A stretch of DNA of 42,002 nucleotides from Ignavibacteriaceae bacterium (GCA_014879635.1 JACSRR010000207.1:1-42002); one strand, 5' to 3'. Shown: positions 2,172 to 28,906, counted from the stretch's first letter. Made by a program: numbers and translations. Notes: a model not told the origin generated them from the letters alone.

Positions 2172-2183
2172 AGTAAGGTTACT

Positions 2184-3185
2184 ATGAAAATTGTTTATTT
2201 AAATCCGGTCTCCGGCTTTAATAACACATTAAGTTCCGATACTTTATGGGGTTTGCTATGTTGGGGTATCCGGCACATATATGGTGAGGAGGTATTGTTA
2301 AGCTTCATTAAAAGCTATTCTGATACTTCTCGTAAACCACTTTTAGTTACTTCAGCCTTCAGGTTTATTACTCAGGGCGATAAGAAAAAGTTGTTTTTTC
2401 CTAAGCCAACTCTCCCAACTTTTACATGGTCAGAACTAACAAAAGATATTAAGGTAAAATCGAAGCTTACTGAAATTTATTCTAAGGTCAAAAAATTCAA
2501 AAAGCTTAAGATGCTTGACTTTGAACAATACTTAAGAGTTCTTTCCGGCGAATTAACAGACTACGATTTATTGGATGCAAAAACTTCAAATTACAAAGAT
2601 CATTTTACCGGTGTAGATATACAGCACAACACAATAGATAGGTACAACGGCTCAACAATTGATGGGTCGCTGTTTGAAAAGTCTGTCGAATTTTCTAAAA
2701 ACTCAGGGATATATTTTTTGGTTGAAGGTGAAGAAGAGCAAATTAATTTGATAGAAGGGGCACTACGATATTTTGAAGTTAACGGTTTTGCAGGAGATTC
2801 TGCAACAGGTACCAACCATTTTAGAATTGAAATTGAAGAATTTACCGGTTTCCCGGTTAATAAATTTAACGCCTACACTAATCTTTCTTTAGTGATTCCC
2901 TCAAAAGAAGAAATTACTTTATTTAAGAAAAACACAAGTCTTTTCTATTATGACATGGCAATTAGAAAAGGGAAAATTTGGCAAGGTTCTCTAAAAGCAG
3001 GCTCAGATTTTTGGAAGCCTTCAGTGATAACATTTAGAGAAGGTTCACTTTTCCCGGCAGAAGGGGTTCAGCAAATAGGCTCAGTGAAGAAAATTGTTGA
3101 AAGGGGGAATCAATCACCTCATGATATCTATCACTATGGTTTAGGTTTTTTAGTTCCCGTATATATAAAGGGGTTTGAAAAATGA
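2184..3185 (+). CDS. csm4: Type III-A CRISPR RAMP protein Csm4
   Basis: Position in operon; Csm4-like N-terminus (SSDTLWGLLCWGI) and C-terminal YGLGFLVPV. Confidence 0.9.
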   Translation: MKIVYLNPVSGFNNTLSSDTLWGLLCWGIRHIYGEEVLLSFIKSYSDTSRKPLLVTSAFRFITQGDKKKLFFPKPTLPTFTWSELTKDIKVKSKLTEIYSKVKKFKKLKMLDFEQYLRVLSGELTDYDLLDAKTSNYKDHFTGVDIQHNTIDRYNGSTIDGSLFEKSVEFSKNSGIYFLVEGEEEQINLIEGALRYFEVNGFAGDSATGTNHFRIEIEEFTGFPVNKFNAYTNLSLVIPSKEEITLFKKNTSLFYYDMAIRKGKIWQGSLKAGSDFWKPSVITFREGSLFPAEGVQQIGSVKKIVERGNQSPHDIYHYGLGFLVPVYIKGFEK

Positions 3186-9268: not shown

Positions 9269-12200
9269 ATGACCTTAAATCAATCAAAATCTTCTTGGTT
9301 TAAGTTTATAATTTTTATACTCTTTATTACTTTCAATACTATAAATGCACAGGTTGACCGTGTTTCTATTGTACAAGACAATAAAGGGACAAAGCTGGTA
9401 GTTAACGGAAAAGACTTTATGGTTATTGGTATGAATTGGGATTATTTCCCGATTGGTACAAATTACACTTATAGCTTGTGGACACAACCCGATAACTTTA
9501 TCAAAGCTGCTTTAGATAGAGAAATGTCGCTCCTTAAAAATATGGGCGTCAATGTAATCAGACAATACTCAGGGGTACAACCCAAGTGGATTGAATACAT
9601 CTATCGAAATTATGGTATTTACACTGTTCTTAATCACTCATTCGGTAGATACGGGGTTACTGTTGACGGAGTTTACATCCCTAACACAGATTACGCTGAT
9701 CCAAAAACAAGAGCTCAAATTCTCACAGAAGTTAAGGTTCTTGCCGAAGAGTTCAAAAATGTTCCCGGTCTTTTAATGTGGTTATTGGGTAACGAAAACA
9801 ACTACGGACTTTTCTGGGGCGGTGCAGAAACCGAAGATATTCCGGTTGGTGAAACCTTAGAATCCGTTAGAGCAAGACACATGTACAATCTCTTTAGCGA
9901 AGGTATTGCCGAAATTAAAAAGATTGACCCAAATCACCCGATTGCTATTTGCAACGGTGATTTACTCTTCCTCGATATTATAGCTGAAGAAATCAAAAAT
10001 ATGGATGTGTTCGGTACCAATGTGTACAGGGGCGTTTCATTTGGCGATATGTTTGATAAAGTCAAAGAAAAATTAAATGTTCCTATACTAATGACCGAAT
10101 TTGGTTCTGATGCTTTTAATGCGGTTACTATGCGTGAAGATCAGTATATGCAAGCTAGATATGCGTTAGAAAATTGGAAAGAGATTTTCGAAAACGCTTA
10201 CGGTAACGGCAAAACAGGAAATTCAATTGGCGGTATGACTTTTCAATTCAGCGATGGTTGGTGGAAGTATTTGCAAGAATCAAACTTAAGTGTTCATGAT
10301 AATAACGCATCATGGTCAAACGGTGGTTACTCCGAAGACTACATTGAAGGCGAAAACAATATGAACGAAGAGTGGTTCGGTATTTGTGCAAAAGGACCAA
10401 CCGATGAAAAAGGATTTTACGAATTATACCCCAGAGCCGCTTATTACGCTTTAAAAGATGCCTATACAATTGACCCCTTAGATGAAAAAGTTGACGCTGC
10501 TGCAATCAGAGCGCACTTTGATAAAATTTCACCTACTCCATACATTTTAATGGCTCGTGGTGATAAAGCAGCTTTAGAAAGTTCTAAATTAAGCACCGTA
10601 AGATTGAGCGGTTTGCGTTTAGAATTTGAAACATTTAGTACCGGTGGTTCTAAAATTACAACTCCCGATAAAAGAGTTGACGGAAGCACAGAGTATCCTG
10701 CGTTCTTAGGCTTCGATCACATGCAATCATTTTACGCAGAATTTGAATCGCAACCTTCCGCTAACATTACTGCTAAAGTTGCACTTAACTTCTTAGCTAA
10801 TGTTCCTTCTAATCCGATTGACGAAATTTTCTACGAAAACAGAGGAAGACCTAAAACAGTTTTAACTCCTGACGGTAGAATGACACTTGAAGGAATCGAA
10901 AGAGTTAAAGTTTATAGAGCAAGTATGCAGTGGGACCACAGTTGGTTTAAACTTGACGGTTTTTACAGAACAGGTCATTACCATTGGGGTTACGAAGGCG
11001 ACTTTTTCGGTCTATACCCGGAGAGTAATTACGGAAACAATATCGATATTTACAACGGAAGCGCACCTCTCGGATTTGAAATCACCGGAAAGAAAGAGCT
11101 TGAAGGCTTAAAAATAGCTTTCGGTCCTGAACTTTGGTGGGGAGCAAACCCGGCAATACTTCTTAAATACAGCAGAAAATTAGGTCCGCTGAGTGTAACC
11201 GGTATTTATCACGAAGATTTAGACGAGCAAGGACAAGCAGTTAGCTCGTTTGCAGTTCCTCTTCCTCCCACAAGAAGAGCAACTTTATCATTTACTGCTA
11301 AACACGGAATTTTTGGTGTAGAAGCAGGCGGTATTTGGTCGGGTAGCAATAAAAAAGGGGAAACTTTTCAAATCGTAACCGGTACAGAAGACAATTACAA
11401 AATTCTACAAGATCAAATTCAAGACAAAGATGCATTTGGTGGTAAGTTAAAGCTCACTATTCAAAGCGGAATTTGGAATTGGTATGCAGAAGGATCGGTT
11501 CAAGGTTTAGTTGCTGATGGCGGTGTTAACCAAACTTTAACTTTTACAGGCTGGAGATTAAAAAACAGCGGAAGAGGTAATCAATACAGTTTATTAACCG
11601 GTATTGCCATTACAATGGGTGATTTTCAAATTGCACCTAATTTTATGTGGCAAAAGCCGATTGAAGGTCCTATTCCTAACACAGTACCTGCCCCCGGAAG
11701 ACCCAGAAATATATTATCTGACCCTTTTGCAGTTCTCGGAAACCGTGAAACCACTGCCGGCGAATTACTTATAACTTATGACCCTACTCCCGCAACTTGG
11801 ATGTATAATTGGGATAGTGATATCAGAGAAGACGCAAATCTTGCAGTTAGTGCAGGAGTTGTTTTCAGACATCACCCCACTACAAGAGATGCTGCTATCG
11901 GTATATTAGGTGACGGCAGAACTATCTTTGCTTTCCCCGGTGCGCCTCCTGCAAGAGACCTTTGGGAATTTCATAGCAGAATAGTTTCAAAATTAGGAAC
12001 AGGCTTCGGTATGATTGCAAACATTTATGCAGGCGAAGGCGAACCTAACGGTAGCGACCAAAGACTCATTCACCGTTACGGCGGAGATATAAGATTAGCG
12101 ATGAACTCTTTCAGATTTATTGCTCAAGCAAAGATTAATGATTGGGGTCCTTATGATTATCATAGAGATTTTAACTTAACATACCCTCTTCAATTAGTTG

Positions 12201-12427
12201 CAGATTTGTCTGTTCAGTTAGGAAAACAAGAATGGTTTGATTTACCTTCAACCAGACTAGGTATCCGCGGTACTTGGAGATCGCTTGATCAATATTCACC
12301 GAGATATAACCCAACTACAATTCTTAATGTTAACGGTGTACCGGTTCCAGATCCCAAAGCTCAGGGCTTTTCAAACGGCGATGAGTGGGAAATCCGTACA
12401 TATTTACATTTCAACTTGGGTATGTAA
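9269..12427 (+). CDS. TIM-barrel glycoside hydrolase/transglycosylase (clan GH-A-like) fused to a predicted outer-membrane beta-barrel
   Basis: Signal peptide; N-terminal LMWLLGNENNYG and PILMTEFGSD (putative acid/base and nucleophile); C-terminal ~550 aa of alternating amphipathic strands ending EIRTYLHFNLGM. Confidence 0.75.
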   Translation: MTLNQSKSSWFKFIIFILFITFNTINAQVDRVSIVQDNKGTKLVVNGKDFMVIGMNWDYFPIGTNYTYSLWTQPDNFIKAALDREMSLLKNMGVNVIRQYSGVQPKWIEYIYRNYGIYTVLNHSFGRYGVTVDGVYIPNTDYADPKTRAQILTEVKVLAEEFKNVPGLLMWLLGNENNYGLFWGGAETEDIPVGETLESVRARHMYNLFSEGIAEIKKIDPNHPIAICNGDLLFLDIIAEEIKNMDVFGTNVYRGVSFGDMFDKVKEKLNVPILMTEFGSDAFNAVTMREDQYMQARYALENWKEIFENAYGNGKTGNSIGGMTFQFSDGWWKYLQESNLSVHDNNASWSNGGYSEDYIEGENNMNEEWFGICAKGPTDEKGFYELYPRAAYYALKDAYTIDPLDEKVDAAAIRAHFDKISPTPYILMARGDKAALESSKLSTVRLSGLRLEFETFSTGGSKITTPDKRVDGSTEYPAFLGFDHMQSFYAEFESQPSANITAKVALNFLANVPSNPIDEIFYENRGRPKTVLTPDGRMTLEGIERVKVYRASMQWDHSWFKLDGFYRTGHYHWGYEGDFFGLYPESNYGNNIDIYNGSAPLGFEITGKKELEGLKIAFGPELWWGANPAILLKYSRKLGPLSVTGIYHEDLDEQGQAVSSFAVPLPPTRRATLSFTAKHGIFGVEAGGIWSGSNKKGETFQIVTGTEDNYKILQDQIQDKDAFGGKLKLTIQSGIWNWYAEGSVQGLVADGGVNQTLTFTGWRLKNSGRGNQYSLLTGIAITMGDFQIAPNFMWQKPIEGPIPNTVPAPGRPRNILSDPFAVLGNRETTAGELLITYDPTPATWMYNWDSDIREDANLAVSAGVVFRHHPTTRDAAIGILGDGRTIFAFPGAPPARDLWEFHSRIVSKLGTGFGMIANIYAGEGEPNGSDQRLIHRYGGDIRLAMNSFRFIAQAKINDWGPYDYHRDFNLTYPLQLVADLSVQLGKQEWFDLPSTRLGIRGTWRSLDQYSPRYNPTTILNVNGVPVPDPKAQGFSNGDEWEIRTYLHFNLGM

Positions 12428-12447: not shown

Positions 12448-14385
12448 ATGAATAAAAGAAAATATTTTTACCCGGTACTTACTCTTTTTGCTCTTGTTTC
12501 AGTTTTTTTCTTTACAAGTTGTGAGAGAGACCCTAACATTCTAACACCGGCTACTTATCCCGTTATTCCGGAAGTATTTATAGACGGATTTAGCTCCGGG
12601 CTTAATTATGCTGCCTTTGGCGGTTCTAAGGTTACTGCCTTTGATGTTGATAAAGATGTTAAATACAGCGGTACCTCATCAATGAAAATTGAAGTTCCCG
12701 ATTTTGAAGACCCTAACGGTGCATACGCAGGTGGTGCTTACTTTACAAGCGAAGGGCGCGATCTTTCAAGTTTTGACGCTCTCACTTTTTGGGCTAAAGC
12801 AAGTCAAGCTGCAAATATAGATGTTGTCGGAATCGGTAATGATTTAGGTGCCTCTAGAAACTTGGCTTCGGTTAACGGATTACCCGTTACAACAAACTGG
12901 AAAAAATATGCCATTCCTATTCCTGACGCCTCAAGATTCACTTCAGAAAGAGGGATGTTCTTCTACTCTGAAGGACCTGAAAATGGAAGAGGTTACACAA
13001 TCTGGTTTGACGAAGTTAAATTTGAGAAATTAGGTACAATTGCCCACCCAAGACCTGCAATATTAAACAGTCAAGACCAAAATACTATTGCAATCATGGG
13101 GCAAGTTCTTACCATTGGCGGTACTTCAATTACTTTTAATATGCCTGACGGAACTGACCAACAGGTTAATATCTCATCAAGTTATTTTACTTTTATATCT
13201 TCAAACGAATCTGTTGCAACTGTAAACGAAAACGGGCAGATTACGATAGTTGGTATGGGTAATGCAAAAGTTACAGCAAAATTTGGAGACCAAGCGGCAG
13301 CCGGTTCAATATCTGTTACCGTTGCTAATCTGCCTCCGCGTGCACCTGTTCCTACAAGACCCGCTACAGAAGTAATTTCAATGTTCAGTAATGCGTATAA
13401 TAATGTACCTATTGATACATGGGCAACAGGATGGTTATATTCAACTGCAGTTCTTACGGAAATCAAAATTGAAGGAGATGATGTAAAACTTTACACAAAT
13501 CTAAACTTCAACGGTATCGAATTTGCATCGCAACCTATCAATGCAACCACCATGACACATTTCCACATGGATATTTGGACTCCTGACCCAACAGCACCAC
13601 CGGCATCATTTAAAGTGTTACTGGTAGATTTTGGTGCTAACGGAGTTTTTGGCGGCGGCGATGATGTTTCGCATGAATTAACCTTTACCGCAAACACAAA
13701 CCCAAGATTAGCTACAGAACAATGGGTGCAAATTGATGTACCACTTTCGGCATTCACCGGCTTAACAACAAGAGCACATTTGGCTCAGTTAGTTATTTCG
13801 GGTGACCCGAACACAGTATATGTAGATAATGTTTATTTCTATCGTTCGGGCGGCGGCGGAACACCTTCGGTTCCAACGGCACCGGCACCTGCTCCAACAT
13901 TTCCTGCTAGCGATGTAATTTCATTGTTCAGCGATAGTTATGCTAATAATCCTGTAAATACATGGTCAGCTGATTGGGATATGGCAGATGTTGCAGATGT
14001 TGTTATAGCCGGAAATAATGTAAAGAGATATACAAACTTAGTGTTTGCCGGTATCGAATTTACGAGTCAAACAATAGATGCAAACGGAATGACTCATTTT
14101 CATATTGATATATGGACCCCTGACCCAACTGCATTACCTGCATCCGTTAAATTCAAGTTAGTTGATTTTGGTGCAAACGGTATTTTTGGCGGAGGTGATG
14201 ATGTAGAACATGAGCTAACTTTTAACGCAAGTTCTAATCCTCCTTTAGTAACCGGTAATTGGGTAAGGTATAATATTCCGTTATCAAATTTTACCGGATT
14301 ATTAACCAAAGGTCATTTGGCACAATTAATAATTGTGGGTGATCCTAACACTCTATATGTTGATAACATTTTGTTTCACAAATAA
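12448..14385 (+). CDS. Secreted lipoprotein: carbohydrate-binding-like N-domain, BIG2-like Ig domain, two tandem glucan-binding-like domains
   Basis: Lipobox VFFFTSCERD; ...SNESVATVNENGQITIVGMGNAKVTAKFGDQ... Ig-like; two copies of VI(S)xFS..Y...TW...DFGANG.FGGGDDVxHELTF...VDNVxF; start reassigned to ATG 12448 from ORF-track 12385. Confidence 0.8.
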   Translation: MNKRKYFYPVLTLFALVSVFFFTSCERDPNILTPATYPVIPEVFIDGFSSGLNYAAFGGSKVTAFDVDKDVKYSGTSSMKIEVPDFEDPNGAYAGGAYFTSEGRDLSSFDALTFWAKASQAANIDVVGIGNDLGASRNLASVNGLPVTTNWKKYAIPIPDASRFTSERGMFFYSEGPENGRGYTIWFDEVKFEKLGTIAHPRPAILNSQDQNTIAIMGQVLTIGGTSITFNMPDGTDQQVNISSSYFTFISSNESVATVNENGQITIVGMGNAKVTAKFGDQAAAGSISVTVANLPPRAPVPTRPATEVISMFSNAYNNVPIDTWATGWLYSTAVLTEIKIEGDDVKLYTNLNFNGIEFASQPINATTMTHFHMDIWTPDPTAPPASFKVLLVDFGANGVFGGGDDVSHELTFTANTNPRLATEQWVQIDVPLSAFTGLTTRAHLAQLVISGDPNTVYVDNVYFYRSGGGGTPSVPTAPAPAPTFPASDVISLFSDSYANNPVNTWSADWDMADVADVVIAGNNVKRYTNLVFAGIEFTSQTIDANGMTHFHIDIWTPDPTALPASVKFKLVDFGANGIFGGGDDVEHELTFNASSNPPLVTGNWVRYNIPLSNFTGLLTKGHLAQLIIVGDPNTLYVDNILFHK

Positions 14386-14408: not shown

Positions 14409-15665
14409 TTGAATAAAATGAATAGAATTAAAACAGCACCTACACTCGAGATTGATCATCTCGGAAAATTAACTCTTAAAGATGAGATGCTCAGGCTTAT
14501 ATGGCGTGAGCATCAAATCTCAAGGGCTGATATTTCAAGGAGACTTAAGTTATCTCGCTCAACGGTAACCGAGATTATTAGAGACCTGCTTGCAACGGGT
14601 TTTGTAAAAGAGACCGGTATCGGAGAATCAAGCGGTGGTAGAAAACCTATTGTTTTAGCTTTTCAAGATAACGCAAAAGTTATTTTAGGTATAGATATAG
14701 GTGCAAGGCATGTTTCGGTTGCAATGACAAACCTTAGAGGCAAACTTCTTTGGTGGAAGGAAGTTAAATTTCCCGTTAGAGAAGATTCGGAAGGTACTTA
14801 CGAATTAATTTACAGATTATGCAACGAAAGCCTAAGTACACTTAAAAAAGGTACAGAAATGCTTCTTAGTATTGGTGTCTCTGTTCCAAGTCCGGTTGAT
14901 CCTATTCGCCCGGAGTATTTATCCGAAACAATTATCCCGGCGTGGCACGGAAAGAGCGGTATTACAAAACTGCGTGAAAAATACAATGTTCCGGTTTATA
15001 TGGATAACGATGCAAACTTAGGTGCTTTAGCAGAGCATTGGTGGGGCGCAGGAAAAAATTGTAAAGATCTAATCTATATCAAAATATCTAACGGTGTGGG
15101 CGCAGGATATATTTTTGACGGCAAACTCTATAGAGGTTCTAAAGGTATTGCCGGTGAAATGAGCCACATGCCTATAGATCCAAACGGTAAATTGTGCGGT
15201 TGTGGTTTAAGAGGTTGTTTGGCAACGGTTGTATCTGCATGGGCATTAAAAGAGAGAGTTAAAGTGCTCTCAACTTTATATCCTAGCAGTAGTTTAATAT
15301 CCGGAGGTCCCGGTGTTACCGATATTGAAAATGCAGCTTTAGTTGGTGACCCTTTAGCGGTGCAGGTTGTGAGAGAAGCAACCGACTACCTATCGGGAGC
15401 TATTACTAGCGTTGTTAACCTGCTTAATCCTGATTTAATTATAATTGGCGGTAGTCTTTCAAGACTCGGAGATTTAGTATTTGAGCCAATTCGTGAAAAA
15501 ATGGATTCTTGCACTTTAGTTGGCAGTGTTAGTAAAACAAAATTGCAAGCCAGTGAGCTCGGTTCAAAAGGAATTGCAATTGGTGCAGCAACTTTGGCAA
15601 TAGAACAAGCTTTTATTGACCCAAAAATTTTAAATGTAAATGTAGCCCCGGCGGCTTTAAAGTGA
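14409..15665 (+). CDS. ROK family transcriptional regulator (NagC/XylR-like)
   Basis: N-terminal wHTH (ISRADISRRLKLSRSTVTEIIRDLL), ROK domain with LGIDIGARHVSVA, DNDANLGALAEHWWGAG, CGCGLRGCLAT zinc motif. Confidence 0.93.
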   Translation: MNKMNRIKTAPTLEIDHLGKLTLKDEMLRLIWREHQISRADISRRLKLSRSTVTEIIRDLLATGFVKETGIGESSGGRKPIVLAFQDNAKVILGIDIGARHVSVAMTNLRGKLLWWKEVKFPVREDSEGTYELIYRLCNESLSTLKKGTEMLLSIGVSVPSPVDPIRPEYLSETIIPAWHGKSGITKLREKYNVPVYMDNDANLGALAEHWWGAGKNCKDLIYIKISNGVGAGYIFDGKLYRGSKGIAGEMSHMPIDPNGKLCGCGLRGCLATVVSAWALKERVKVLSTLYPSSSLISGGPGVTDIENAALVGDPLAVQVVREATDYLSGAITSVVNLLNPDLIIIGGSLSRLGDLVFEPIREKMDSCTLVGSVSKTKLQASELGSKGIAIGAATLAIEQAFIDPKILNVNVAPAALK

Positions 15666-15711: not shown

Positions 15712-16530
15712 ATGAACGCTAAGAAAAATCAATATTTAATACTTTTGGTTTGCGCTCTCTTTCTTATCACAGTTCCCTCATGCGAAAATTCTACCGCTAT
15801 AGAATCACCAACTTGGCAACTTGTTTGGCAAGATGAGTTTGAAGGAGCAGCTGGGCAGAGACCGGATTCCACTAAATGGACTTACGATATTGGTACTGAT
15901 TGGGGGAATCAACAGCTTGAATACGATACTGACCGCCCTCAAAATGTTTCTTTAGACGGTAACGGTAATTTACTAATTACGGCAAGAAGAGAAGCTTACA
16001 TGGGGCAACCTTTTACTTCCGGTAGAATAAAAACTCAAGGTTTGTATGAACAAACTTACGGCAGATACGAGGCAAGAATTAAAATGCCGTGGGGTCCCGG
16101 TATCTGGCCCGCATTTTGGCTGCTCGGCTCAAACATTGAAACTGTTGGCTGGCCCAATTGCGGTGAAATTGATATTATGGAATACAGAGGTCAACAACCT
16201 AATCTAATACACGGAACAGTACACGGACCGGGTTACTCGGGTGGTGCCGGCATTTCAAAAACTTACGGGTTTGAACATAAAAGATTTGATGTTGATTTTC
16301 ATGTATTTGCGGTTGAATGGGGCGCAGATTACTTAAAGTTTTTTGTTGATGATGTTATGTATCATCAAATTAAAAAAGGTGATGTACCCGGGCAATGGGT
16401 TTTTGATAGTCCGTTTTTTATAATTCTTAATGTTGCTGTGGGCGGTAATTATGTTGGTTTCCCGACAAGTCAAACGCCGTTTCCGCAAAGTATGGTTGTA
16501 GATTATGTTAGAGTTTACAAGGCATTGTAA
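15712..16530 (+). CDS. GH16 beta-glucanase (laminarinase-like), lipoprotein
   Basis: Lipobox VPSCEN; LVWQDEFEG; GEIDIMEYRG catalytic motif; FFIILNVAVGGNYVG. Confidence 0.95.
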   Translation: MNAKKNQYLILLVCALFLITVPSCENSTAIESPTWQLVWQDEFEGAAGQRPDSTKWTYDIGTDWGNQQLEYDTDRPQNVSLDGNGNLLITARREAYMGQPFTSGRIKTQGLYEQTYGRYEARIKMPWGPGIWPAFWLLGSNIETVGWPNCGEIDIMEYRGQQPNLIHGTVHGPGYSGGAGISKTYGFEHKRFDVDFHVFAVEWGADYLKFFVDDVMYHQIKKGDVPGQWVFDSPFFIILNVAVGGNYVGFPTSQTPFPQSMVVDYVRVYKAL

Positions 16531-16612
16531 ATTTTTATTGATTTAATTTTAAAATTAATCACAAATTAATTCATTATTTCATCTAAACTAATTCATTATT
16601 TCAGGAGTGTTA

Positions 16613-18082
16613 ATGAGTGGTAAAGAGATTCATAAAACAGCGCCGTCTGATAAAATTTCAAACGGACAAAAGTTTGCATACGGATTAGGAGCCATCGTTA
16701 ACAACCTGCTTGGCGGTGCAATCGGATATATGTCTATTGTACTCAATGTAGGTTTAGGAATTAATCCTGCATTAGTAGGTACTCTTCAAGCTATCCCCCG
16801 TTTTACCGATGCTTTAACCGACCCTATAATGGGGTATATTTCAGACAAAACAAACTCTAAGTACGGAAGAAGAAGACCCTATATTTTTATCGGAGCTATT
16901 TTTGTCGGTTTAGTATTTGCATTGATGTGGCAGCTTCCCGAAGGTTACAGCGAGATGTTCTATTTCTGGTTCTTCTTGATTGGTTCAATAATCTTCTATT
17001 TGTTTTATACAATGTTTGCAACTCCTTGGGTGGCATTAGGTTATGAACTAACCACAGATTATCATGAGCGAACACGGTTAATGGGTGTAATGAATTTTAT
17101 GGGGCAGTTTGCCTGGATTTCACTCCCTTGGTTTTACGCCTTTATGGAGAACGACAGGCTCTTCTCCAATTCAGTTGAGGGTGCAAGAACACTCGCAATA
17201 TTTATCGGAATTTTTGTTGCTGTTGTAGGTATTATGCCCGCAATATTTACGAAAGAAAGATATGTTGCAGTTGACGGTGAAATCAAAGAGAAAACAAAAA
17301 TACTAGCAGGATTAAAAACTAATGTTGCTCTTTTCTTTAAGGGATTGTTGGTAACAGTTAAAAGAGTCGAATTTTTGAAACTTTGTGCCGGTACATTTTT
17401 CTTATTTAACGGAATAATGCTTGTTGGTGCTTTCAGTTCATATATAACAATTTTTTATGTATGCGGCGGCGATACAAGTATGGGTGCTAAATACATGGGA
17501 TTGTTTGGCACAATTAATACAATGTCAACCTTGGCAGCAATTGCTGGTGTTACCTGGATTTCATCGAGAATAGGGAAAAGAAAGACATTCATAATTGCAA
17601 CATCTGTTACAATGGTTGGCAGTTTATCAAAATGGTTTTTTTATGACCCGATGAACCCATGGTTAGTACTTATTCCCGCACCTTTAATGGCGGTTGGTAT
17701 GGGTGCACTTTTCACATTAATGGGCTCTATGATTGCCGATGTTTGCGATTTAGACGAATTGGAAACCGGTGAAAGACGCGAAGGTATGTTCGGATCTATC
17801 TATTGGTGGATGGTAAAACTCGGAATGGCTTTGGCTTTCGGATTATCAGGTTTTCTATTAAATGCTACAGGATTTGTTGTCGATTTTGGCGGAGCTCAAA
17901 CTTCAAGTACTTTCTTCTGGATGAGAGTTGTTGATGTTGGGATACCGGCAATTGCTGCTCTTATAGCAATATTCTCGGTTGCCTCTTATAAAATTACCGA
18001 AGAAAAGTCTTATGAAATCAGAAGCGAGTTAGAAAAGAGGCGTGCAAGTGCTCAACCTGCGGCTGCAGAGATTCAGAGCTAA
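16613..18082 (+). CDS. GPH-family (MFS) sugar:cation symporter
   Basis: 12-TM-like protein; ALTDPIMGYISDKTNSKYGRRRPYIFIGA and MIADVCDLDELETGERREGMFGSIYWWMVKLG GPH motifs; likely ATG start 16613 after AGGAG. Confidence 0.92.
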   Translation: MSGKEIHKTAPSDKISNGQKFAYGLGAIVNNLLGGAIGYMSIVLNVGLGINPALVGTLQAIPRFTDALTDPIMGYISDKTNSKYGRRRPYIFIGAIFVGLVFALMWQLPEGYSEMFYFWFFLIGSIIFYLFYTMFATPWVALGYELTTDYHERTRLMGVMNFMGQFAWISLPWFYAFMENDRLFSNSVEGARTLAIFIGIFVAVVGIMPAIFTKERYVAVDGEIKEKTKILAGLKTNVALFFKGLLVTVKRVEFLKLCAGTFFLFNGIMLVGAFSSYITIFYVCGGDTSMGAKYMGLFGTINTMSTLAAIAGVTWISSRIGKRKTFIIATSVTMVGSLSKWFFYDPMNPWLVLIPAPLMAVGMGALFTLMGSMIADVCDLDELETGERREGMFGSIYWWMVKLGMALAFGLSGFLLNATGFVVDFGGAQTSSTFFWMRVVDVGIPAIAALIAIFSVASYKITEEKSYEIRSELEKRRASAQPAAAEIQS

Positions 18083-18086
18083 TAAT

Positions 18087-19154
18087 ATGATTATGACTAA
18101 AGCTAAAACAGGTCAAAATTCTAAAATGAAAATAAATAAAATAGTTTTATCCGGTTTGTGTTTACTGCTATTGGTAGCAATTCCAAGTTGTACAGATTCA
18201 TCTGACAACAACGATACAACAAAGCAAGAAAAAGTCAGGAATATTGTTATCACTATGATTCCTAAAAGTGCAGCAAATCCTGTTTTTCTTTCAGCTAAAA
18301 CCGGGGCGGAAAAAGAAGCCGAAAATCTTTCTGAAAAGTACAGTAAAATCAGTGTTACCGTAAAATGGAGTACGCCCGAAACAGAAAGTGCAACCGAGCA
18401 AGCTAAATTGATTCGTGATGCTATCAAAGCTAAAACGGATGCAATTATCATTTCTTGTTCTGATATCGATTCTATAACCCCTGCAATTAACGAAGCGGTT
18501 GATGCAGGTATTCAGGTTATGACTTTTGACAGTGATGCTCCAAAATCTAAGAGGTTTGCTTATTTCGGACCCGATGATATTGCTTTAGGTGAAGCCGTAT
18601 TAACAGAATTGAGCAAACTAATTGGCGGTAAAGGTAAAATAGCTATTCTCGGCGGTAATGAGAATGCCCCCAATCTTATTCAAAGAGTAAACGGAATTAA
18701 AAAAGCTATTGCCGCAAACAAAGGAATAGAATTAGTAGGTGTTTTTTATCACCCCGAAAACGAAGCCGCAGCCATTGCAGAAATGATGAGAGTGCAAGAG
18801 TTACACCCCGATTTAGCCGGATGGGCTATGGTGGGTGGCTGGGCAATGTTTGGTAAAGAGTTGATGAATAAAATTGAACCGGGCAAAATTAAAATTGTTG
18901 CCGTTGACGCTCTACCCGAACAATTAGAGTACATCGAGAAAAACTATGCTCAAGTTTTATTTGGGCAGCCAACATTTAGATGGGGTAAAATTACGGTTGA
19001 AACTGTGATCGAAAAAATTTACCGCAATAAGAAAGTTGACGAAATTATAAGACTCAGCCCCATTCCTGTCACAATAGATAATTTGGGTGGATGGTCAAGA
19101 CAACTAAGAGCTTGGGGTTATCAAAATATCCCCGATAATTATTTGAGAATGTGA
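18087..19154 (+). CDS. Periplasmic sugar-binding lipoprotein (type I PBP, ribose/xylose-type)
   Basis: Lipobox VAIPSCTDSS; ITMIPKSAANPVF, IISCSDIDSITPAINEAVDAGIQVMTFDSDAPKSKRFAYFGPDD; start trimmed to ATG 18087 (18126 also possible). Confidence 0.88.
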   Translation: MIMTKAKTGQNSKMKINKIVLSGLCLLLLVAIPSCTDSSDNNDTTKQEKVRNIVITMIPKSAANPVFLSAKTGAEKEAENLSEKYSKISVTVKWSTPETESATEQAKLIRDAIKAKTDAIIISCSDIDSITPAINEAVDAGIQVMTFDSDAPKSKRFAYFGPDDIALGEAVLTELSKLIGGKGKIAILGGNENAPNLIQRVNGIKKAIAANKGIELVGVFYHPENEAAAIAEMMRVQELHPDLAGWAMVGGWAMFGKELMNKIEPGKIKIVAVDALPEQLEYIEKNYAQVLFGQPTFRWGKITVETVIEKIYRNKKVDEIIRLSPIPVTIDNLGGWSRQLRAWGYQNIPDNYLRM

Positions 19155-19710: not shown

Positions 19711-20598
19711 ATGTCTCGTAGAGAATCCAAAACAAATTTTTTATCAGGTTTAGAAACTACAGGTTTAGGCAAATCAGAATTAGATAGCCTTTTTCTGCAA
19801 TTACTTAATTCAGGAATACACGGTATTTCATTTAGCGCTTATTTAGAAAATCAGGGTCCCGGGTCTTTAATTACCGAAGAACAAATTGAAGAGAGAATTA
19901 AGGTAATTAAGCCGTATGTTAAATGGGTAAGGTCATTTTCTTGTGTTGACGGTAATGAATTAATTCCCGCAGTTGCAAAAAAACACGGTATCAAGACTCT
20001 TGTAGGTGCTTGGATAGGAACTGATCTTGAAAAAAACGAGAGTGAAATTGAAGGCATAATAAATGTAGCTAAAGCAGGAAACGCAGATATTGTTGCTATT
20101 GGCAATGAAGTTATGTTGAGAGGCGATGTTTCTGAAGAAGAACTAATAAAATATTTACAAAGAGTAAAATTAGAAGTTACCGGAATCCCGGTCGGGTATG
20201 TTGATGCATATTATGAATTTGTTAACTATCCGCGTATCACAAATATTTGTGATGTTGTTTTAGCTAACTGTTACCCATTCTGGGAAGGTTACCCAATTGA
20301 GCACGCTCTGGCATATATGAAAAATATGTATCATTTAGCAGTTACAGCAGCACGCGGTAAAAAAGTTATAATTAGTGAAACAGGCTGGCCTGATAAAGGT
20401 ACACCCGATAGGGCTGCCGTTCCTTCCTATGAAAATGCATTAAAATATTTTATAGATGCATACAATTGGGCAAAAGAAGAAAATATCGACATTTTCTACT
20501 TCTCAAGCTTTGATGAATCTTGGAAAGTTGATGCCGAAGGTGATGTAGGTGCTTATTGGGGATTATGGGACAAAAACGGAAACCTGAAATACGGTTGA
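19711..20598 (+). CDS. GH17-like beta-1,3-glucan hydrolase, predicted cytoplasmic
   Basis: AIGNEVMLRGD (acid/base) and VIISETGWPDKGTP (nucleophile) GH17 signatures; no signal peptide. Confidence 0.85.
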   Translation: MSRRESKTNFLSGLETTGLGKSELDSLFLQLLNSGIHGISFSAYLENQGPGSLITEEQIEERIKVIKPYVKWVRSFSCVDGNELIPAVAKKHGIKTLVGAWIGTDLEKNESEIEGIINVAKAGNADIVAIGNEVMLRGDVSEEELIKYLQRVKLEVTGIPVGYVDAYYEFVNYPRITNICDVVLANCYPFWEGYPIEHALAYMKNMYHLAVTAARGKKVIISETGWPDKGTPDRAAVPSYENALKYFIDAYNWAKEENIDIFYFSSFDESWKVDAEGDVGAYWGLWDKNGNLKYG

Positions 20599-20619: not shown

Positions 20620-22311
20620 ATGGAATTCGAATTTATGATTAAGATACTTTTATTTATTCCGCTTACCGTGATGATTATGAACGCTTTGACCTCATTTTCC
20701 GGTGAGCCCGGGCAAGTTTTAACCTCAAAAGAAGTTCTTGTAACTTCAGAAGCAGGCGATAAAATTGCGGTTAAAGAAAATATTTCGTTTACAATTGGTA
20801 ATGCTCCCGAGGGGAATATCATCAAAGTTGACCCTAAAATCATAAAACAAGAAATTGACGGAATAGGAACTTCGTTCACTGAATCCTCTGCTTTTGTACT
20901 TGCTCATTTAGATGTAAAGAACCGTCTTGAAGTGATGGAAAAAATTTTTGGCGAATCAGGGGCAAACTTTACACTTACAAGAACCCACATTGGTTCGTGT
21001 GATTTTAGTGTAGAAGGTAAATACTCTTATTTGGACAAAAAGGGGGATACAAGTCTTGAAAGTTTCAGCATTTTGCCAGATCTAACAGGGTTTGACCCTC
21101 AAAAGTATCCCGGAATAAAAGATTTTTCTTATGATTTATTACCTATGATTAGAGAAGCTCTTGAAATTAAACAAAAACAAGAGGATAAAGAATTAAGAAT
21201 TGTTGCTTCAGCTTGGACGGCACCTTATTGGATGAAAGATATTGAAGACTGGTTTATTAAAGGTACTCCCGAAAACAATTTTCACGGAACGGGCGGCAAA
21301 CTTAAACCCGAATACGAAGAATTATTTGCAGATTATATCATTAGATACTTAAAAGAGTATAAAAATGCAGGCGTAAATATTTGGGCTATAACTCCCGTTA
21401 ATGAACCTCACGGTAATAACGGTCAGTGGGAGAGTATGCACTTTACTCCTGAATCCCAAAACCTTTTTATTAAAAACTTCTTAGGTCCTAAGCTTGCAAC
21501 AGGGCTTTTCAGCGATACCAAACTCCTCATTTATGACCAAAACAGAGACGGCTTAGAGCATTGGACAGATATTATATTGGGCGATGAAGAAACCGCAAAA
21601 TATGTTTACGGAACTGCCGTACACTGGTACGAAAGCACATTTAAAGTCTATGAAGATGTTTTTCAGAGAGTAAACGCGAAATTTCCGAATCACACAATTA
21701 TACACACTGAAGGGTGTATTGATGACTTAGGAAAAGATGCACCGCAAGGTATTACTGACCCTGAAAGATTCAAAGAAAAAAACTGGTTTAACAATGATTC
21801 TTTTTGGTGGAATGCAAATGCTACTGATTGGGGCTACTCTGCAGTTTGGGAAGGAGTAAAAGTTGAAGATCATCCAATATACACTCCTGTACACAGATAC
21901 GCAAGAAATATTATTGTTAGCCTTGATAATTGGATGACAGGTTGGATTGATTGGAATATAGTATTAGACCAAAGAGGTGGTCCTAACCATGTAGGCAATT
22001 ATTGTGGTGCTCCAATAATGATTGATTTAAAGAGTAAATTTGTTTACTACACCCCTATCTATTATATACTTGCTCAATTGAGCAGAACAATAAGACCGGG
22101 AGATAGAGCCGTTCAGACTAACAAGTTCTTAAAAAACCTAGATAATGATGCCCTTCATTCTTGTGCTACCTTAAGTAAGGATAATGTTTTAACGGTACAA
22201 TTACTAAACACAACTAAAGAACCGTTAAAAATGAGCCTGCAGATAGAAGAACAATTTGCAGAGATTACAATGACACCTAATTCGATTCAAACAGTTCGTA
22301 TTCAACTTTAA
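20620..22311 (+). CDS. GH30 glycoside hydrolase (candidate beta-1,6-glucanase/beta-glucosidase)
   Basis: IDGIGTSFTESSAFVL, VASAWTAPYWMKD, WAITPVNEPHGNNGQWESMHFTPE, IIHTEGCIDD; N-terminal signal. Confidence 0.92.
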   Translation: MEFEFMIKILLFIPLTVMIMNALTSFSGEPGQVLTSKEVLVTSEAGDKIAVKENISFTIGNAPEGNIIKVDPKIIKQEIDGIGTSFTESSAFVLAHLDVKNRLEVMEKIFGESGANFTLTRTHIGSCDFSVEGKYSYLDKKGDTSLESFSILPDLTGFDPQKYPGIKDFSYDLLPMIREALEIKQKQEDKELRIVASAWTAPYWMKDIEDWFIKGTPENNFHGTGGKLKPEYEELFADYIIRYLKEYKNAGVNIWAITPVNEPHGNNGQWESMHFTPESQNLFIKNFLGPKLATGLFSDTKLLIYDQNRDGLEHWTDIILGDEETAKYVYGTAVHWYESTFKVYEDVFQRVNAKFPNHTIIHTEGCIDDLGKDAPQGITDPERFKEKNWFNNDSFWWNANATDWGYSAVWEGVKVEDHPIYTPVHRYARNIIVSLDNWMTGWIDWNIVLDQRGGPNHVGNYCGAPIMIDLKSKFVYYTPIYYILAQLSRTIRPGDRAVQTNKFLKNLDNDALHSCATLSKDNVLTVQLLNTTKEPLKMSLQIEEQFAEITMTPNSIQTVRIQL

Positions 22312-23535: not shown

Positions 23536-24699
23536 TTGAACATTAAAAAATTATATAGACTAATTTTCATCCCGGGCATCATTTTGATGCTTATGCAGGG
23601 CTGTAAGTCAGGAGAAAATATCAATAATAATGAGTATTCAACTAAAAAAATTTCGATAATGAAAGATTTAGAAAAGAAATTGAAAGAAGCTAAACTTTCC
23701 GGAAAAGAAGATCCTTTTGTACAGAGAGAATTCACTCCGTATTTAAACGGTGAGTGGATAGGTAACGCTGTTTCTTACGGTTGTTACCGAAAAGGACAGG
23801 CTCCGGGAGTTAAAGGACCTTCAGAAGCCGAAATTTTAGAAGACCTCCAAATAATTATAAAATATTGGAATCTGATTCGTGTTTACGGCTCCGATGATGA
23901 TTCAGAAAGAATTTTAAAGGTGATTAAAGACAACAATTTACCCGTTAGAGTAATGCTCGGTGTTTGGGTTGAAAGCGAAACAAATAATCCCGTAAGAGAA
24001 AAAGAGAATATTGCTCAAGCAGTGAAAGCTGTTTTTTTGGCAAACGAATACAAAGAAATTGTAGCAGCAGTAAATGTAGGTAATGAAACACAAGTATTTT
24101 GGTCGGCGCATAAAATGGAAATGAATGACCTTATAAAATATTTGAGATTTGTTAGAAACAACACAAGCGTGCCGGTAACAACCGCAGATGATTACAATTT
24201 TTGGAATAAGCCCGAAAGTAAAATTGTAGCCGATGAAGTTGATTTTATAGTTGTTCACATTTATCCGCTTTGGAACGGGCAAACACTCGAAAATTCTATA
24301 GTCTGGTTAGATATGAATTATAATGATATCAAAAAAATCCACTCCGGTAAAATGCCGGTATTGGGTGAAATAGGGTGGGCTACAGATTATGACGCAACAA
24401 AAACGGGCGAGGGGCAACAGGGTTCGCTAATTAAAGGCGAAGTTGGTTTGAAAGCTCAAGAGCAATTTCTAAAAAAATTGACTGACTGGGTCTCTAAAAA
24501 TGAAGTCACTACTTTTCTGTTTGAAGCATTTGACGAGCCATGGAAAGGTGGCGGTGAAAACTCAGGTCCACGCGAAATTGAAAAACACTGGGGTGTTTTT
24601 TACGAAAACCGTACTCCAAAAGAATCTTTTAAAAATTACTTAAAACATTCCCCAGAATATGACGGAAAAACTGAAAACAAACAAAAGAATGAAAAATAA
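23536..24699 (+). CDS. GH17-like beta-1,3-glucanase, lipoprotein
   Basis: TTG start; lipobox MLMQGCKSG; NVGNETQVFW and MPVLGEIGWATD motifs; FLFEAFDEPWKGG. Confidence 0.85.
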   Translation: MNIKKLYRLIFIPGIILMLMQGCKSGENINNNEYSTKKISIMKDLEKKLKEAKLSGKEDPFVQREFTPYLNGEWIGNAVSYGCYRKGQAPGVKGPSEAEILEDLQIIIKYWNLIRVYGSDDDSERILKVIKDNNLPVRVMLGVWVESETNNPVREKENIAQAVKAVFLANEYKEIVAAVNVGNETQVFWSAHKMEMNDLIKYLRFVRNNTSVPVTTADDYNFWNKPESKIVADEVDFIVVHIYPLWNGQTLENSIVWLDMNYNDIKKIHSGKMPVLGEIGWATDYDATKTGEGQQGSLIKGEVGLKAQEQFLKKLTDWVSKNEVTTFLFEAFDEPWKGGGENSGPREIEKHWGVFYENRTPKESFKNYLKHSPEYDGKTENKQKNEK

Positions 24700-24739
24700 A
24701 AATAAATACAATACTAACTTATTTTCCGGGAGGGAAAAA

Positions 24740-26668
24740 ATGAAAAACACATTAGCGAAATTTTTCGTAGTACTGTTCATTGTTGCAATGAACGGTATGA
24801 TAAACGCACAAAACAACCCCATCAATTTTGAGGCGGGCGGTCATGGTGCAACATGGACTTGGACTGTATTTGAAAACAATACAAATCCACCGGTAGAAAT
24901 TGTAGCTAATCCTGATCCGTCGGGAATAAATACATCTTCAACCGTTGCCAAGTTTACTGCATTGCAATCAGGAATGCCTTGGGCTGGTTTTGAATCACAA
25001 CACGGTTCTGATATCGGTACATTCACTTTGAACGCTTCAAACAGCACTGTTAAAATTATGGTTTGGAAATCTGTTATAAGTGATGTTGGACTAAAATTTG
25101 TTTTACCTAACGGTGAAGCATTACCGGAAATCAAAGTTGCTAATACATTGATTAACCAATGGGAAGAGCTAACATTTGATTTTTCAGGTAGAATAGGTCA
25201 TCCTGCAACTATTGGTCAAGACCAAATAGTAATTTTCCCTGATTTCACAACAAGAACGGCTGATCAAGTTATCTATATTGATAACATTACTTTTTCGGCA
25301 AGTGGACCGGTAGCGGGCGAACCAACAGTTGCAGCTCCAAATCCTACTCTTCCTGCTACAGATGTAATTTCCCTTTTCAGCAATGCTTATCCTAATGTAA
25401 CTGTTGATACTTGGTCAGCAGACTGGGATCAAGCAGATGTTGTTGATATACAAATTCAAGGTAACGACACAAAAAAATACACCAACTTAGTTTTTGCAGG
25501 TATCGAATTTACATCACAACCTATTAATGCTACCGCAATGACTCACTTTAACATGGATATTTGGACTCCTGACCCAACCGCAGCACCTGCAGTATTCAGA
25601 ATTAAATTAGTTGATTTTGGTGCAGACGGAGTTTTTGGCGGCGGTGATGATACAGAGCATGAAATTACATTATCCGCAAGTACAACACCCGGAATAACCA
25701 CCGGTAATTGGGTAAGTCTTAAAATTCCTTTTACTCTCTTTACAGGCTTAATCAATAGAGGTCATTTAGCACAATTGATTATTTCAGGTGATCCAAACAC
25801 TGTATATGTAGATAATGTGTATTTCTCTATTGGCGGCGGCGGCGGAACTCCTACAGTACCAACAGTAGCAGCTCCTACACCTAATGTACCGTCTTCAAAC
25901 GCAATTTCTCTATTTAGCAACGCTTATACTAATGTACCCGTTGACACTTGGTCAGCTTCATGGGATCAAGCAGATGTTGCAGATGTTCAAATTGCAGGAA
26001 ACGACACCAAATTATATACAAACTTAGTTTTTGCAGGTATTGAGTTTATCACACAAACAGTTAATGCAACTGCTATGACTCATTTCCACATGGATATTTG
26101 GACTCCGGATGCAACCTCAACAGGTGTATTTAGAATTAAATTAGTTGATTTTGGTGCTGACGGTGCTTTCGGCGGCGGTGATGATACAGAACATGAACTT
26201 ACTTTTAATGCATCTTCTACTCCTCCGTTAGTTACAGGTCAATGGGTAAGATTTGATATTCCGTTTACAGCTTTTACCGGATTAGTTAACAGAGGTCATT
26301 TAGCCCAGTTAATTATTTCAGGTGACCCTAACACAGTATATGTAGATAATGTTTATTTCCACAATATGCCTACAGATATCAAAGAAATTACAACCGAAAT
26401 ACCTTCTGATTTTTCATTAGGTCAGAATTATCCGAATCCGTTTAATCCGTCAACAGTTATCAACTTTACTTTACCCGAAGCATCAGAAGTAACTTTAAAA
26501 GTATATAATATGCTCGGTCAAGAAGTGAAAACACTAATAAATCAATCAATGAGTGCCGGAAAATATGAAGTCACTTTTGATGCCGCCGGTTTACCTTCAG
26601 GTAATTATATCTATACCCTGAATACCGGTAGTTCACAATTAGTGAAAAAAATGATGTTGATGAAATAA
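24740..26668 (+). CDS. Secreted glucan-binding-like protein: N-terminal CBM-like domain, two tandem repeat domains, T9SS sorting domain
   Basis: Start reassigned to ATG 24740 after GGGAGG; VPTVAAPTP linkers; SLGQNYPNPFNPSTVINFTLPEASEVTLKVYNMLGQEV...LVKKMMLMK T9SS CTD. Confidence 0.88.
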   Translation: MKNTLAKFFVVLFIVAMNGMINAQNNPINFEAGGHGATWTWTVFENNTNPPVEIVANPDPSGINTSSTVAKFTALQSGMPWAGFESQHGSDIGTFTLNASNSTVKIMVWKSVISDVGLKFVLPNGEALPEIKVANTLINQWEELTFDFSGRIGHPATIGQDQIVIFPDFTTRTADQVIYIDNITFSASGPVAGEPTVAAPNPTLPATDVISLFSNAYPNVTVDTWSADWDQADVVDIQIQGNDTKKYTNLVFAGIEFTSQPINATAMTHFNMDIWTPDPTAAPAVFRIKLVDFGADGVFGGGDDTEHEITLSASTTPGITTGNWVSLKIPFTLFTGLINRGHLAQLIISGDPNTVYVDNVYFSIGGGGGTPTVPTVAAPTPNVPSSNAISLFSNAYTNVPVDTWSASWDQADVADVQIAGNDTKLYTNLVFAGIEFITQTVNATAMTHFHMDIWTPDATSTGVFRIKLVDFGADGAFGGGDDTEHELTFNASSTPPLVTGQWVRFDIPFTAFTGLVNRGHLAQLIISGDPNTVYVDNVYFHNMPTDIKEITTEIPSDFSLGQNYPNPFNPSTVINFTLPEASEVTLKVYNMLGQEVKTLINQSMSAGKYEVTFDAAGLPSGNYIYTLNTGSSQLVKKMMLMK

Positions 26669-26728: not shown

Positions 26729-28906
26729 ATGAAAAAGTTTAAAACTTTTATATTTGTGCTGATTCTGTTTTTTATATCAAACGGAATTTTATCAGCGCAA
26801 AGTAATCCGGTTAATTTTGAAACAGGCGGTTTTGGTGCCACATGGACATGGAATGTTTTTGAGAACGGAGACAATCCACCTGTTCAAATTATTCCTAACC
26901 CTGCTCCGGCAGGAGTAAACACATCGGCAACAGTTGCTAAATTTACTGTTAGAGTTGCCGGTGCACCGTGGGCTGGTACAATTACTCAAAATCAGGGTGT
27001 ATTCACTCTTGATTCAACCAATTGTACTATTAAAATAATGGTTTGGAAATCTGTAATAAGTGATGTAGGTATTAAATTTGAAGCAAATTTAGCCTCAACC
27101 GGAGAAATAAAAGTTGCTAATACACTTGTTAATCAATGGGAAGAACTGACATTTGATTTTTCAGGTAGAATTGGAGCACCATCTTCAACCAATATTGACG
27201 CTCTTATTGTATTCCCTGACTTTAATGCCAGAACAACCGAACACATAGTGTATTTTGATAATATAACTTTTTCACCAATATTAGCCGGTCCAACTACTCC
27301 TACAGTCGCTGCTCCTACACCAACATATCCCTCAGGAAATGTTATATCATTATTCAGTAATGCATATACTAATGTTCTAGTGGATACATGGTCAGCATCA
27401 TGGGATCAAGCAGATGTTGAAGATGTTTTAATTGCAGGAAACGATACCAAGAAATACACAAATCTTGTTTTTGCAGGTATTGAGTTTACTACTCAGCCGG
27501 TTAACGCTACTACAATGACTCATTTCCGTATGGATATTTGGACACCCGACCCTACTGCATTACCCGCAGTATTCAGAATCAAATTAGTTGATTTTGGAGC
27601 AAACGGCGTATTTGGCGGAGGTGATGATACGGAACATGAACTCATATTTAATGCTTCAACAAATCCTCCGTTAGTTACGGGTAACTGGCTCACCTTTAAT
27701 ATTCCTTTTACCGCTTTTACGGGATTGGTTAATAGAGGTCACCTTGCTCAGATGATAATTTCAGGCGATCCAAACACTGTTTTTGTTGATAATGTATTAT
27801 TTTATCAAGGTACCGTTGCACCTACAACACCAACTGTGGCTGCTCCGGCTCCGCCGTATCCTGCAGCTCAAGTAATTTCATTATTCAGCAATTCTTATCC
27901 AAATGTACTGGTTGATACATGGTCAGCATCATGGGATCAAGCAGATGTTGAAGATGTTTTAATTGCAGGAAACGACACCAAAAAATACACAAATCTTGTT
28001 TTTGCAGGAATTGAATTCACAACACAACCTATTAACGCTAGTCCGATGACACATTTCCACATGGATATATGGACCCCGGACCCAACTGCATTACCCGCAG
28101 TATTCAGAATTAAATTAGTTGATTTTGGAGCTAATGGTGTTTTTGGCGGAGGTGATGATACAGAACATGAACTTACTTTTAATGCATCTTCTACTCCTCC
28201 GTTAGTTACAGGCAATTGGATTGGTTTTGATATTCCTTTTTCTGCTTTTACTGGTTTAGTTAATAGAGGTCATCTTGCTCAATTGATTATTTCAGGCGAC
28301 CCAAACACAGTATTTGTAGATAATGTTTATTTCCACACGGGAATTGTTCCTGTTGAGTTAACAAGCTTTACTGCTTCTGTGGTTGATGAATCTGTGGTGC
28401 TTAATTGGACAACAGCTTCAGAAACAAACAATCAGGGCTTTTCAATTGAAAAAAGTTCGGATAATAGTGAATTTTCACAGGTTCATTTTGTTTCCGGTAA
28501 CGGTACAACACTTGAAACTTCACTTTATACTTATACTGATAATCAAGTTTTACCCGGTAAATCTTATTACCGCTTAAAACAAATTGATTTTGACGGTACT
28601 TTTGCATATTCACCTGTTGTTGAAGTAAATATTGAATTACCCGTTATTTACTCATTAGAGCAAAATTATCCTAATCCGTTCAACCCTTCAACTAAAATTA
28701 GTTTTTCGCTGCCCGCAACAAGTGAAGTATCTTTAAAGGTATTTAACATGTTAGGACAAGAGATGGCTACTTTAGTTAGCGGAATGATGAACGCAGGAAA
28801 ATATGATATCGCGTTTGACGCATCAGATTTTGCTTCAGGAAATTACATTTATGTACTTTCTGCAGGTAGTTTCAAATCTGTTAAAAAAATGATTTTAATC
28901 AAGTAA
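26729..28906 (+). CDS. Secreted glucan-binding-like paralogue: N-terminal CBM-like domain, two tandem repeat domains, FnIII-like spacer, T9SS sorting domain
   Basis: Same architecture as 24740-26668; VELTSFTASVVDESVVLNWTTASETNNQGFSIEKS spacer; SLEQNYPNPFNPSTKISFSLPATSEVSLKVFNMLGQEM T9SS CTD. Confidence 0.9.
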   Translation: MKKFKTFIFVLILFFISNGILSAQSNPVNFETGGFGATWTWNVFENGDNPPVQIIPNPAPAGVNTSATVAKFTVRVAGAPWAGTITQNQGVFTLDSTNCTIKIMVWKSVISDVGIKFEANLASTGEIKVANTLVNQWEELTFDFSGRIGAPSSTNIDALIVFPDFNARTTEHIVYFDNITFSPILAGPTTPTVAAPTPTYPSGNVISLFSNAYTNVLVDTWSASWDQADVEDVLIAGNDTKKYTNLVFAGIEFTTQPVNATTMTHFRMDIWTPDPTALPAVFRIKLVDFGANGVFGGGDDTEHELIFNASTNPPLVTGNWLTFNIPFTAFTGLVNRGHLAQMIISGDPNTVFVDNVLFYQGTVAPTTPTVAAPAPPYPAAQVISLFSNSYPNVLVDTWSASWDQADVEDVLIAGNDTKKYTNLVFAGIEFTTQPINASPMTHFHMDIWTPDPTALPAVFRIKLVDFGANGVFGGGDDTEHELTFNASSTPPLVTGNWIGFDIPFSAFTGLVNRGHLAQLIISGDPNTVFVDNVYFHTGIVPVELTSFTASVVDESVVLNWTTASETNNQGFSIEKSSDNSEFSQVHFVSGNGTTLETSLYTYTDNQVLPGKSYYRLKQIDFDGTFAYSPVVEVNIELPVIYSLEQNYPNPFNPSTKISFSLPATSEVSLKVFNMLGQEMATLVSGMMNAGKYDIAFDASDFASGNYIYVLSAGSFKSVKKMILIK
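27334..28335 (+). repeat. Two tandem ~160 aa domains (about 27334-27804 and 27869-28335) with near-identical DNA blocks
   Basis: Both encode VISLFSNxYxNVLVDTWSASWDQADVEDVLIAGNDTKKYTNLVFAGIEFTTQP...; 62 bp identical DNA at 27383-27444 and 27914-27975. Confidence 0.9.

Follow-up and report, generated by a model that had tools for sequence, protein, structure and literature searches.

A predicted outer-membrane beta-barrel fused to a clan GH-A glycosidase in mostly SusCD-less beta-1,3-glucan loci of Ignavibacteriota and Bacteroidota

Beta-1,3-glucans of the laminarin type make up some of the largest pools of carbon that Bacteroidota turn over; their uptake is usually credited to SusC/SusD. In these importers, a TonB-dependent transporter barrel of the outer membrane is encoded beside the gene for a surface-type lipoprotein, together with GH16. 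Loci containing GH149 but no SusCD were reported in 2018 as CAZyme clusters of Bacteroidetes (PMC5827456); the passages of that paper concerned with these clusters name no outer-membrane barrel-glycosidase fusion as importer. Laminarin loci of Bacteroidota are known to include a single protein that combines a transporter with a beta-1,3-glucan glycosidase, FbGH17b of Formosa, an inner-membrane MFS transporter with a C-terminal GH17, whose authors were aware in 2018 of no other transporter-CAZyme fusion (PMC6246565). Classical autotransporters (PF03797) likewise join an N-terminal enzyme to a C-terminal barrel, which has 12 strands and is spanned by a helix.

We describe a gene that codes for a glycosidase and a predicted outer-membrane beta-barrel in a single chain. 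It was found in a 42,002-nucleotide stretch of DNA from an Ignavibacteriaceae bacterium, hereafter the window. The locus is of the same kind as the published GH149 clusters, with GH149, GH16, GH17, GH30 and an MFS transporter. FbGH17b is the nearest published precedent in kind, but the protein described here has its barrel in the outer membrane and its enzyme, a clan GH-A member of another family, at the N-terminus. A literature search, which reached few subscription journals, found no description of an outer-membrane barrel fused to a glycosidase. The family member of Bacteroides finegoldii is labelled 'glycoside hydrolase family 2 TIM barrel-domain containing protein' in PLSDB/RefSeq; this public annotation names the TIM-barrel half only, and the predicted channel half is therefore likely to have been overlooked.

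The fusion gene, its enzyme and its neighbors

The open reading frame is uninterrupted over 1052 codons and heads a series of genes that share its strand (Table 1). A chance or mis-joined reading frame was ruled out, as the same architecture occurs in about 80 orthologues. At the signal-peptide junction, Q28 is kept in 96% and A27 in 79% of 78 homologues, and a conserved ARGDKAAL motif in the linker runs into the first strand of the barrel. A preliminary description of the sequence had proposed a glycosidase followed by a barrel; that order stands, although the sizes differ, with the enzyme at about residues 29-400, a linker at 401-443, and a barrel of about 609 residues where ~550 had been claimed. 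An alternative call of the partner lipoprotein gene begins at an upstream GTG at 12385, and a Pfam search of this protein found no clear domain besides Big_2. A Usp gene lies between those for the sugar-binding protein and GH17. The 386-aa protein encoded after GH30 faintly resembles a GH16-type enzyme at its C-terminus. No Rfam families were found within the window, and promoter-like sites were rarer there than in shuffled sequence. At its left end (3-4861), the window holds a truncated operon of Type III-A (Csm) CRISPR genes, including a Cas10 palm domain, RAMP proteins and Csm4.

Table 1. Features of the fusion gene and its locus, with positions in the window
Feature	Position	Strand	Basis
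Glycosidase/outer-membrane beta-barrel fusion (predicted), 1052 aa	9269..12427	+	locus's first gene
Signal peptide, type I, residues 1-27	9269..9349	+	sequence; conserved A27/Q28 junction
Clan GH-A TIM-barrel glycosidase domain, residues 29-400	9353..10468	+	PF02836, fold, invariant Glu
Acid/base E176	9794-9796	+	invariant
Nucleophile E277	10097-10099	+	invariant
Linker, residues 401-443 (43 residues), two predicted helices	10469..10597	+	AlphaFold, alignment
Predicted outer-membrane beta-barrel, residues 444-1052, ~24 strands, 12 long loops	10598..12424	+	AlphaFold, Foldseek, conservation
Partner lipoprotein, FFTSC-ERD lipobox then acidic residues, Big_2-like domain and repeats	12448..14385	+	sequence
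ROK/NagC-like regulator	14409..15665	+	family search
GH16 beta-glucanase, lipoprotein-like signal	15712..16530	+	family search
GPH-family sugar symporter (MFS_2)	16607..18082	+	family search
Periplasmic sugar-binding protein (Peripla_BP_4)	18042..19154	+	Pfam
GH17, no evident signal peptide	19711..20598	+	Pfam; N-terminus
GH30 with C-terminal sandwich	20620..22311	+	Pfam
386-aa protein, signal-peptide-like N-terminus, between GH30 and GH17-like	22350-23510		no Pfam match
Second, divergent GH17-like protein, lipoprotein-like signal	23536..24699	+	Pfam; N-terminus
T9SS-exported protein, C-terminal sorting domain	24659..26668	+	family search
T9SS-exported protein, C-terminal sorting domain	26729..28906	+	family search
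GH149 beta-1,3-glucan phosphorylase	29022..32486	+	NF058639, 1596 bits vs cut-off 1150

The fusion's sole Pfam match was to the GH2-type TIM barrel PF02836 (residues 42-294; 34.8 bits against a cut-off of 21). The TIM domain directly follows the signal peptide, without the N-terminal sandwich domains of a full GH2 enzyme. The two catalytic-type motifs of the preliminary description, GNEN and TEFG, are present at residues 174-177 and 276-279, and 78 homologues all keep their glutamates, E176 and E277. This pair follows strands 4 and 7 of the TIM barrel, as in clan GH-A. Together with the above-cutoff Pfam match and the fold matches, it confirms the proposed glycosidase domain. Five tryptophans (W57, W107, W183, W331 and W332) are likewise identical in 78/78 aligned homologues.

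The enzyme's closest folds in Foldseek were the beta-1,3-glucanases BuGH158 (6pal, E 2.4e-13) and LaGH157 (9g5g, E 2.9e-13), and 6pal was also the top match of a profile search (E 1.5e-8) in which the GNE and TE motifs line up. These enzymes share with the fusion the clan GH-A TIM barrel and the GNE and TE catalytic motifs, but identity is about 15%, and where they have a C-terminal Ig-like domain the fusion shows none evident and continues into the linker and barrel. Similarity to GH158 is remote (best E 0.0043 in a single-sequence search), and the gap between TIM barrel and linker is too short for an Ig domain. The enzyme thus cannot be placed in GH158 or GH157 by sequence. Its locus and its fold neighbors suggest that it acts on beta-1,3-glucan.

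No SusC or SusD family was found among the window genes scanned, in agreement with the earlier view of the locus as SusCD-less. It is therefore not a PUL in the strict sense, as there is no adjacent SusC/SusD pair, and its genome contains no PF07980. The same held for all six fusion-bearing genomes of the window's order, its own included, none of which encodes a SusD of family PF07980 anywhere; glucan must cross the outer membrane of these organisms by some other route. Elsewhere, SusC/D-like genes were detected by BLAST near the fusion in 3/80 stretches (the best 80 of at least 507 relatives) and in a further fused locus, L147. Strict mutual exclusion of barrel and SusCD is thereby ruled out, and the barrel does not always replace SusC/D.

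The C-terminal barrel and its orientation

The 610 or so C-terminal residues have no Pfam family match, porin families included, and no PDB chain matched them above chance in a profile search. An AlphaFold model built from six sequences (pLDDT 42.8) was set aside in favor of one built from a 78-sequence alignment, which has a mean pLDDT of 78.5 and a pTM of 0.53 over the whole protein. In this model and alignment, residues 444-1052 form about 24 amphipathic antiparallel strands. Hydrophobicity alternates from side to side along the strands with a score of 1.39, against 0.69 +/- 0.11 for shuffled columns (0/1000 as high) and 0.62 for the soluble domain of the same protein. Alternation is nearly absent from strand 1 (0.13), which leaves room for a count of 22-26 strands. 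Long loops and tight turns alternate regularly: median lengths are 26 after odd strands (19, 34, 34, 10, 18, 31, 26, 31, 26, 9, 16 and 30) and 2 after even strands, most of which are followed by exactly 2 residues (p = 0.00026). Outer-membrane barrels end in an aromatic-rich strand, and the last strand of the fusion, YLHFNLGM, is of this type. Foldseek matched the barrel to TonB-dependent transporters (BtuB3, FepA and PfeA) and to Campylobacter MOMP; a search of a viral structure library returned nothing informative besides generic porins and one SusC-like protein. With its Sec signal, the protein has the features of an outer-membrane beta-barrel, and the preliminary assignment of the C-terminal half is upheld. 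The predicted strands, the alternation statistics and the fold matches rule out a soluble beta-sandwich or beta-helix, the outcome that would have spoken against it.

The barrel resembles those of TonB-dependent transporters in fold, but the fusion has no plug, carboxypeptidase-like or SusD domain, bears an enzyme on the barrel itself, and shows no sequence relation to SusC/SusD that could be found. A Pfam scan likewise detected no plug family that would place it among TonB-dependent transporters.

Two features of the barrel suit a substrate-specific channel better than a mere anchor. Conservation is higher at strand positions that face the lumen than at those facing the lipid (entropy 0.83 vs 1.33, p 1.6e-7; 31 vs 8 invariant positions), with the qualification that facing was assigned by hydrophobicity, which biases entropy on its own, so that part of the difference is expected because hydrophobic positions interchange freely. 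The long loops, which usually vary most in porins, are conserved here as strongly as the strands and carry 21 conserved aromatic or His residues.

In bacterial outer-membrane barrels, the tight turns and the C-terminus lie on the periplasmic side. In the fusion, the N-terminal domain leads into strand 1 from the side of the tight turns, opposite the 12 long loops, and the number of strands is even; both termini on this side with an even count should make the glycosidase periplasmic. Judged by these loop lengths, the enzyme's most probable place is the periplasm, at the exit of the channel. The suggestion in the preliminary description that it could be anchored at the cell surface runs against the same topology and is probably wrong.

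Conservation of the fusion and its partner genes

A scan with one genome per species returned at least 507 relatives, the best 80 of which were used for locus counts. All of these 80 are fused, at 58-78% identity, and full-length except for a few at contig ends. They come from Ignavibacteriota, Bacteroidota and single genomes labelled Zixiibacteriota and Neomarinimicrobiota; the family also occurs in Flavobacterium, Chryseobacterium and Bacteroides. In the best 80 of at least 507, where flanks are often cut by contig ends, a homologue of the partner lipoprotein was present in 78/80 loci, GH16 in 70/80, GH17b in 51/80, GH149 in 50/80, GPH in 45/80 and GH30 in 39/80. The order fusion-lipoprotein-GH16 is conserved, the lipoprotein gene mostly lying directly 3' of the fusion and usually 10-30 bases on, and lipoprotein and GH16 again follow the fusion in eight further fused loci. 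Surface lipoproteins of Bacteroidota carry a cysteine followed by acidic residues. Most of the partner lipoproteins have a lipobox-like cysteine with acidic residues after it, by which they would lie on the cell surface.

The partner lipoproteins range in length from ~465 to >1300 aa (L044, L053, L058, L062 and L059), apparently through added copies of one ~170-aa repeat that is shared with the T9SS-exported neighbors. Just upstream of fused Bacteroidota loci, Y_Y_Y / Reg_prop / LuxR-type regulators of 930-980 aa are encoded (L041:6838-9651 and L019:6582-9518); two were checked by Pfam and others are of similar size, and the window and its near relatives have the in-operon ROK regulator instead. 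In the Bacteroides finegoldii record annotated as 'plasmid 29' (L095, NZ_OY725931.1), the fusion, lipoprotein, GH16 and BglX lie on a 45.8-kb circular record that also carries rpsA, valine-tRNA ligase and glutamine synthetase, and so it is probably a piece of chromosome and not a plasmid.

A full-length profile was searched against 396 genomes drawn evenly from the phylum. Matches were found in 58/396 genomes, many of them merely weak TIM-barrel matches, and the barrel was found in 35. No barrel was found without the enzyme in the 396 genomes, other than in broken genes or as fragments at contig ends. The converse does occur: in nine genomes, a close enzyme domain (55-60% identical to that of the window) stands alone, at least one of these genes being cut by a contig end. 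In a tree of the enzyme domain, constructed by a quick method and having several weak branches, most standalone enzymes fall in several separate spots among fused ones, and starred branches force at least five label changes, counting a very distant sequence (L136). For most of them, this scatter makes loss of the barrel the simpler reading. One standalone gene (L134) ends in a stop codon that is followed by a barrel remnant of ~54 residues. More distant still are ~450-aa lipoproteins (L007:1006-2358, L008-L010) in which a carboxypeptidase-regulatory-like domain precedes a glycosidase domain of 26-28% identity; the gene in L007 lies between GH3-like and GH16-like genes.

The partner lipoprotein was found in 0/9 standalone-enzyme loci. 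These loci, without barrel and lipoprotein, mostly retain GH149, GH17 and GPH, and two of them (L128 and L130) have SusD or SusC plus SusD beside the enzyme, which indicates that the outer-membrane module is what was exchanged. Barrel, lipoprotein and GH16 thus act as a unit at the outer membrane, one that a locus can lose or exchange, and the enzyme mostly stays with GH149, GH17 and the symporter. A universal replacement by SusCD after loss of the barrel is unsupported, as SusD lies within the stretch in those two standalone loci only.

Proposed glucan entry route and alternatives

What the computation itself shows is the presence of both domains and of the catalytic pair, the conservation of the fusion, its association with lipoprotein and GH16, and a setting among beta-1,3-glucan genes. 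The reading that we favor, with a probability of roughly 0.6, is that the fusion is an outer-membrane glycan channel with a tethered glycosidase, serving as the entry gate of a SusCD-independent utilization system for laminarin-type beta-1,3-glucan. On the outside, the neighboring lipoprotein would bind glucan, cooperating with the barrel's conserved aromatic loops in the way that SusD partners SusC, and GH16 would cut the polymer. Oligosaccharides could then diffuse through the barrel lumen, there being no plug domain and hence no reason to invoke TonB. At the periplasmic mouth, the tethered glycosidase would shorten or rearrange each arriving chain; such cutting on entry is proposed to keep the gradient inward and prevent back-diffusion, making uptake one-way. 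GH30 and GH17 would trim the products further, the GPH symporter would import them, and GH149 would phosphorolyze them. The preliminary proposal of a combined cleavage and channel role is therefore retained as the most economical reading, with channel function as a prediction. More tentatively, the family as a whole may represent an importer independent of both SusC/SusD and TonB, in which a substrate-specific channel with a periplasmic glycosidase and a dedicated surface lipoprotein has spread across Bacteroidota and related phyla, and cutting, not ion-motive energy, makes uptake one-way.

The alternatives differ in where the enzyme sits and in what the barrel does. The linker could pass through the barrel, in the manner of classical autotransporters, so that the enzyme cuts polymer outside the cell and feeds the partner proteins. 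The helix at residues 422-441 that leads directly into strand 1 does resemble an autotransporter's pore-spanning helix, some standalone enzymes have lipoprotein signals and could be surface-tethered, and Bacteroides GH158 enzymes are expected at the surface (PMC7157763). We nevertheless consider this arrangement unlikely, and less likely than periplasmic placement: the fusion matches no autotransporter family (PF03797 included), has about 24 strands and not 12, lacks a long extended passenger, and has its N-terminus beside the tight turns. An open, functional channel is moreover what the conservation of the polar lumen and of the loops suggests. If the enzyme is periplasmic, the barrel might still do no more than hold this beta-glucan glycosidase at the outer membrane, glucan entering via other transporters. 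Fusion genomes beyond the window's own order do encode SusD elsewhere, and the existence of lipoprotein-type standalone enzymes implies that membrane tethering alone may suffice. Some 610 highly conserved residues with conserved lumen and loops would be excessive for an anchor, though, and the near-strict co-occurrence of the barrel with the adjacent lipoprotein and the absence of PF07980 SusD from six fusion genomes make a mere anchor distinctly improbable.

A channel with a periplasmic enzyme also leaves room for other chemistry or for the opposite direction of transport. The enzyme could be a beta-1,3-glucanosyl transferase or a branching enzyme that remodels chains at the pore, which would alter the chemistry alone and is compatible with the favored entry gate. 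Weak, below-cutoff matches to GH72 (fungal glucanosyltransferase) in two standalone relatives (E 0.0013 and 0.0076), a SKN1/KRE6 match of the GH16 neighbor and a known marine GH17 transglycosylase (PMC11005184) point this way. The type of activity is not readable from the motifs, but the hydrolytic GH158/GH157 folds match better and the neighbors are catabolic, and we regard a transferase as rather unlikely. Polysaccharide exporters also pair barrels with periplasmic enzymes or domains. By this combination, the locus could be read as one that makes and exports beta-glucan, with the barrel as exporter and the glycosidase trimming, as in PgaA or AlgE systems; it is highly improbable, because no polysaccharide synthase is among the families found in the locus, and GH149, the GPH symporter and several hydrolases point to uptake.

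The fusion of predicted channel and glycosidase is a widespread, apparently unrecognized variant of glycan-uptake machinery. It offers a testable alternative route of glucan entry in organisms without PF07980 SusD genes, and the occurrence of fused and barrel-less loci within one genus is a natural series that makes the role of the barrel directly testable.
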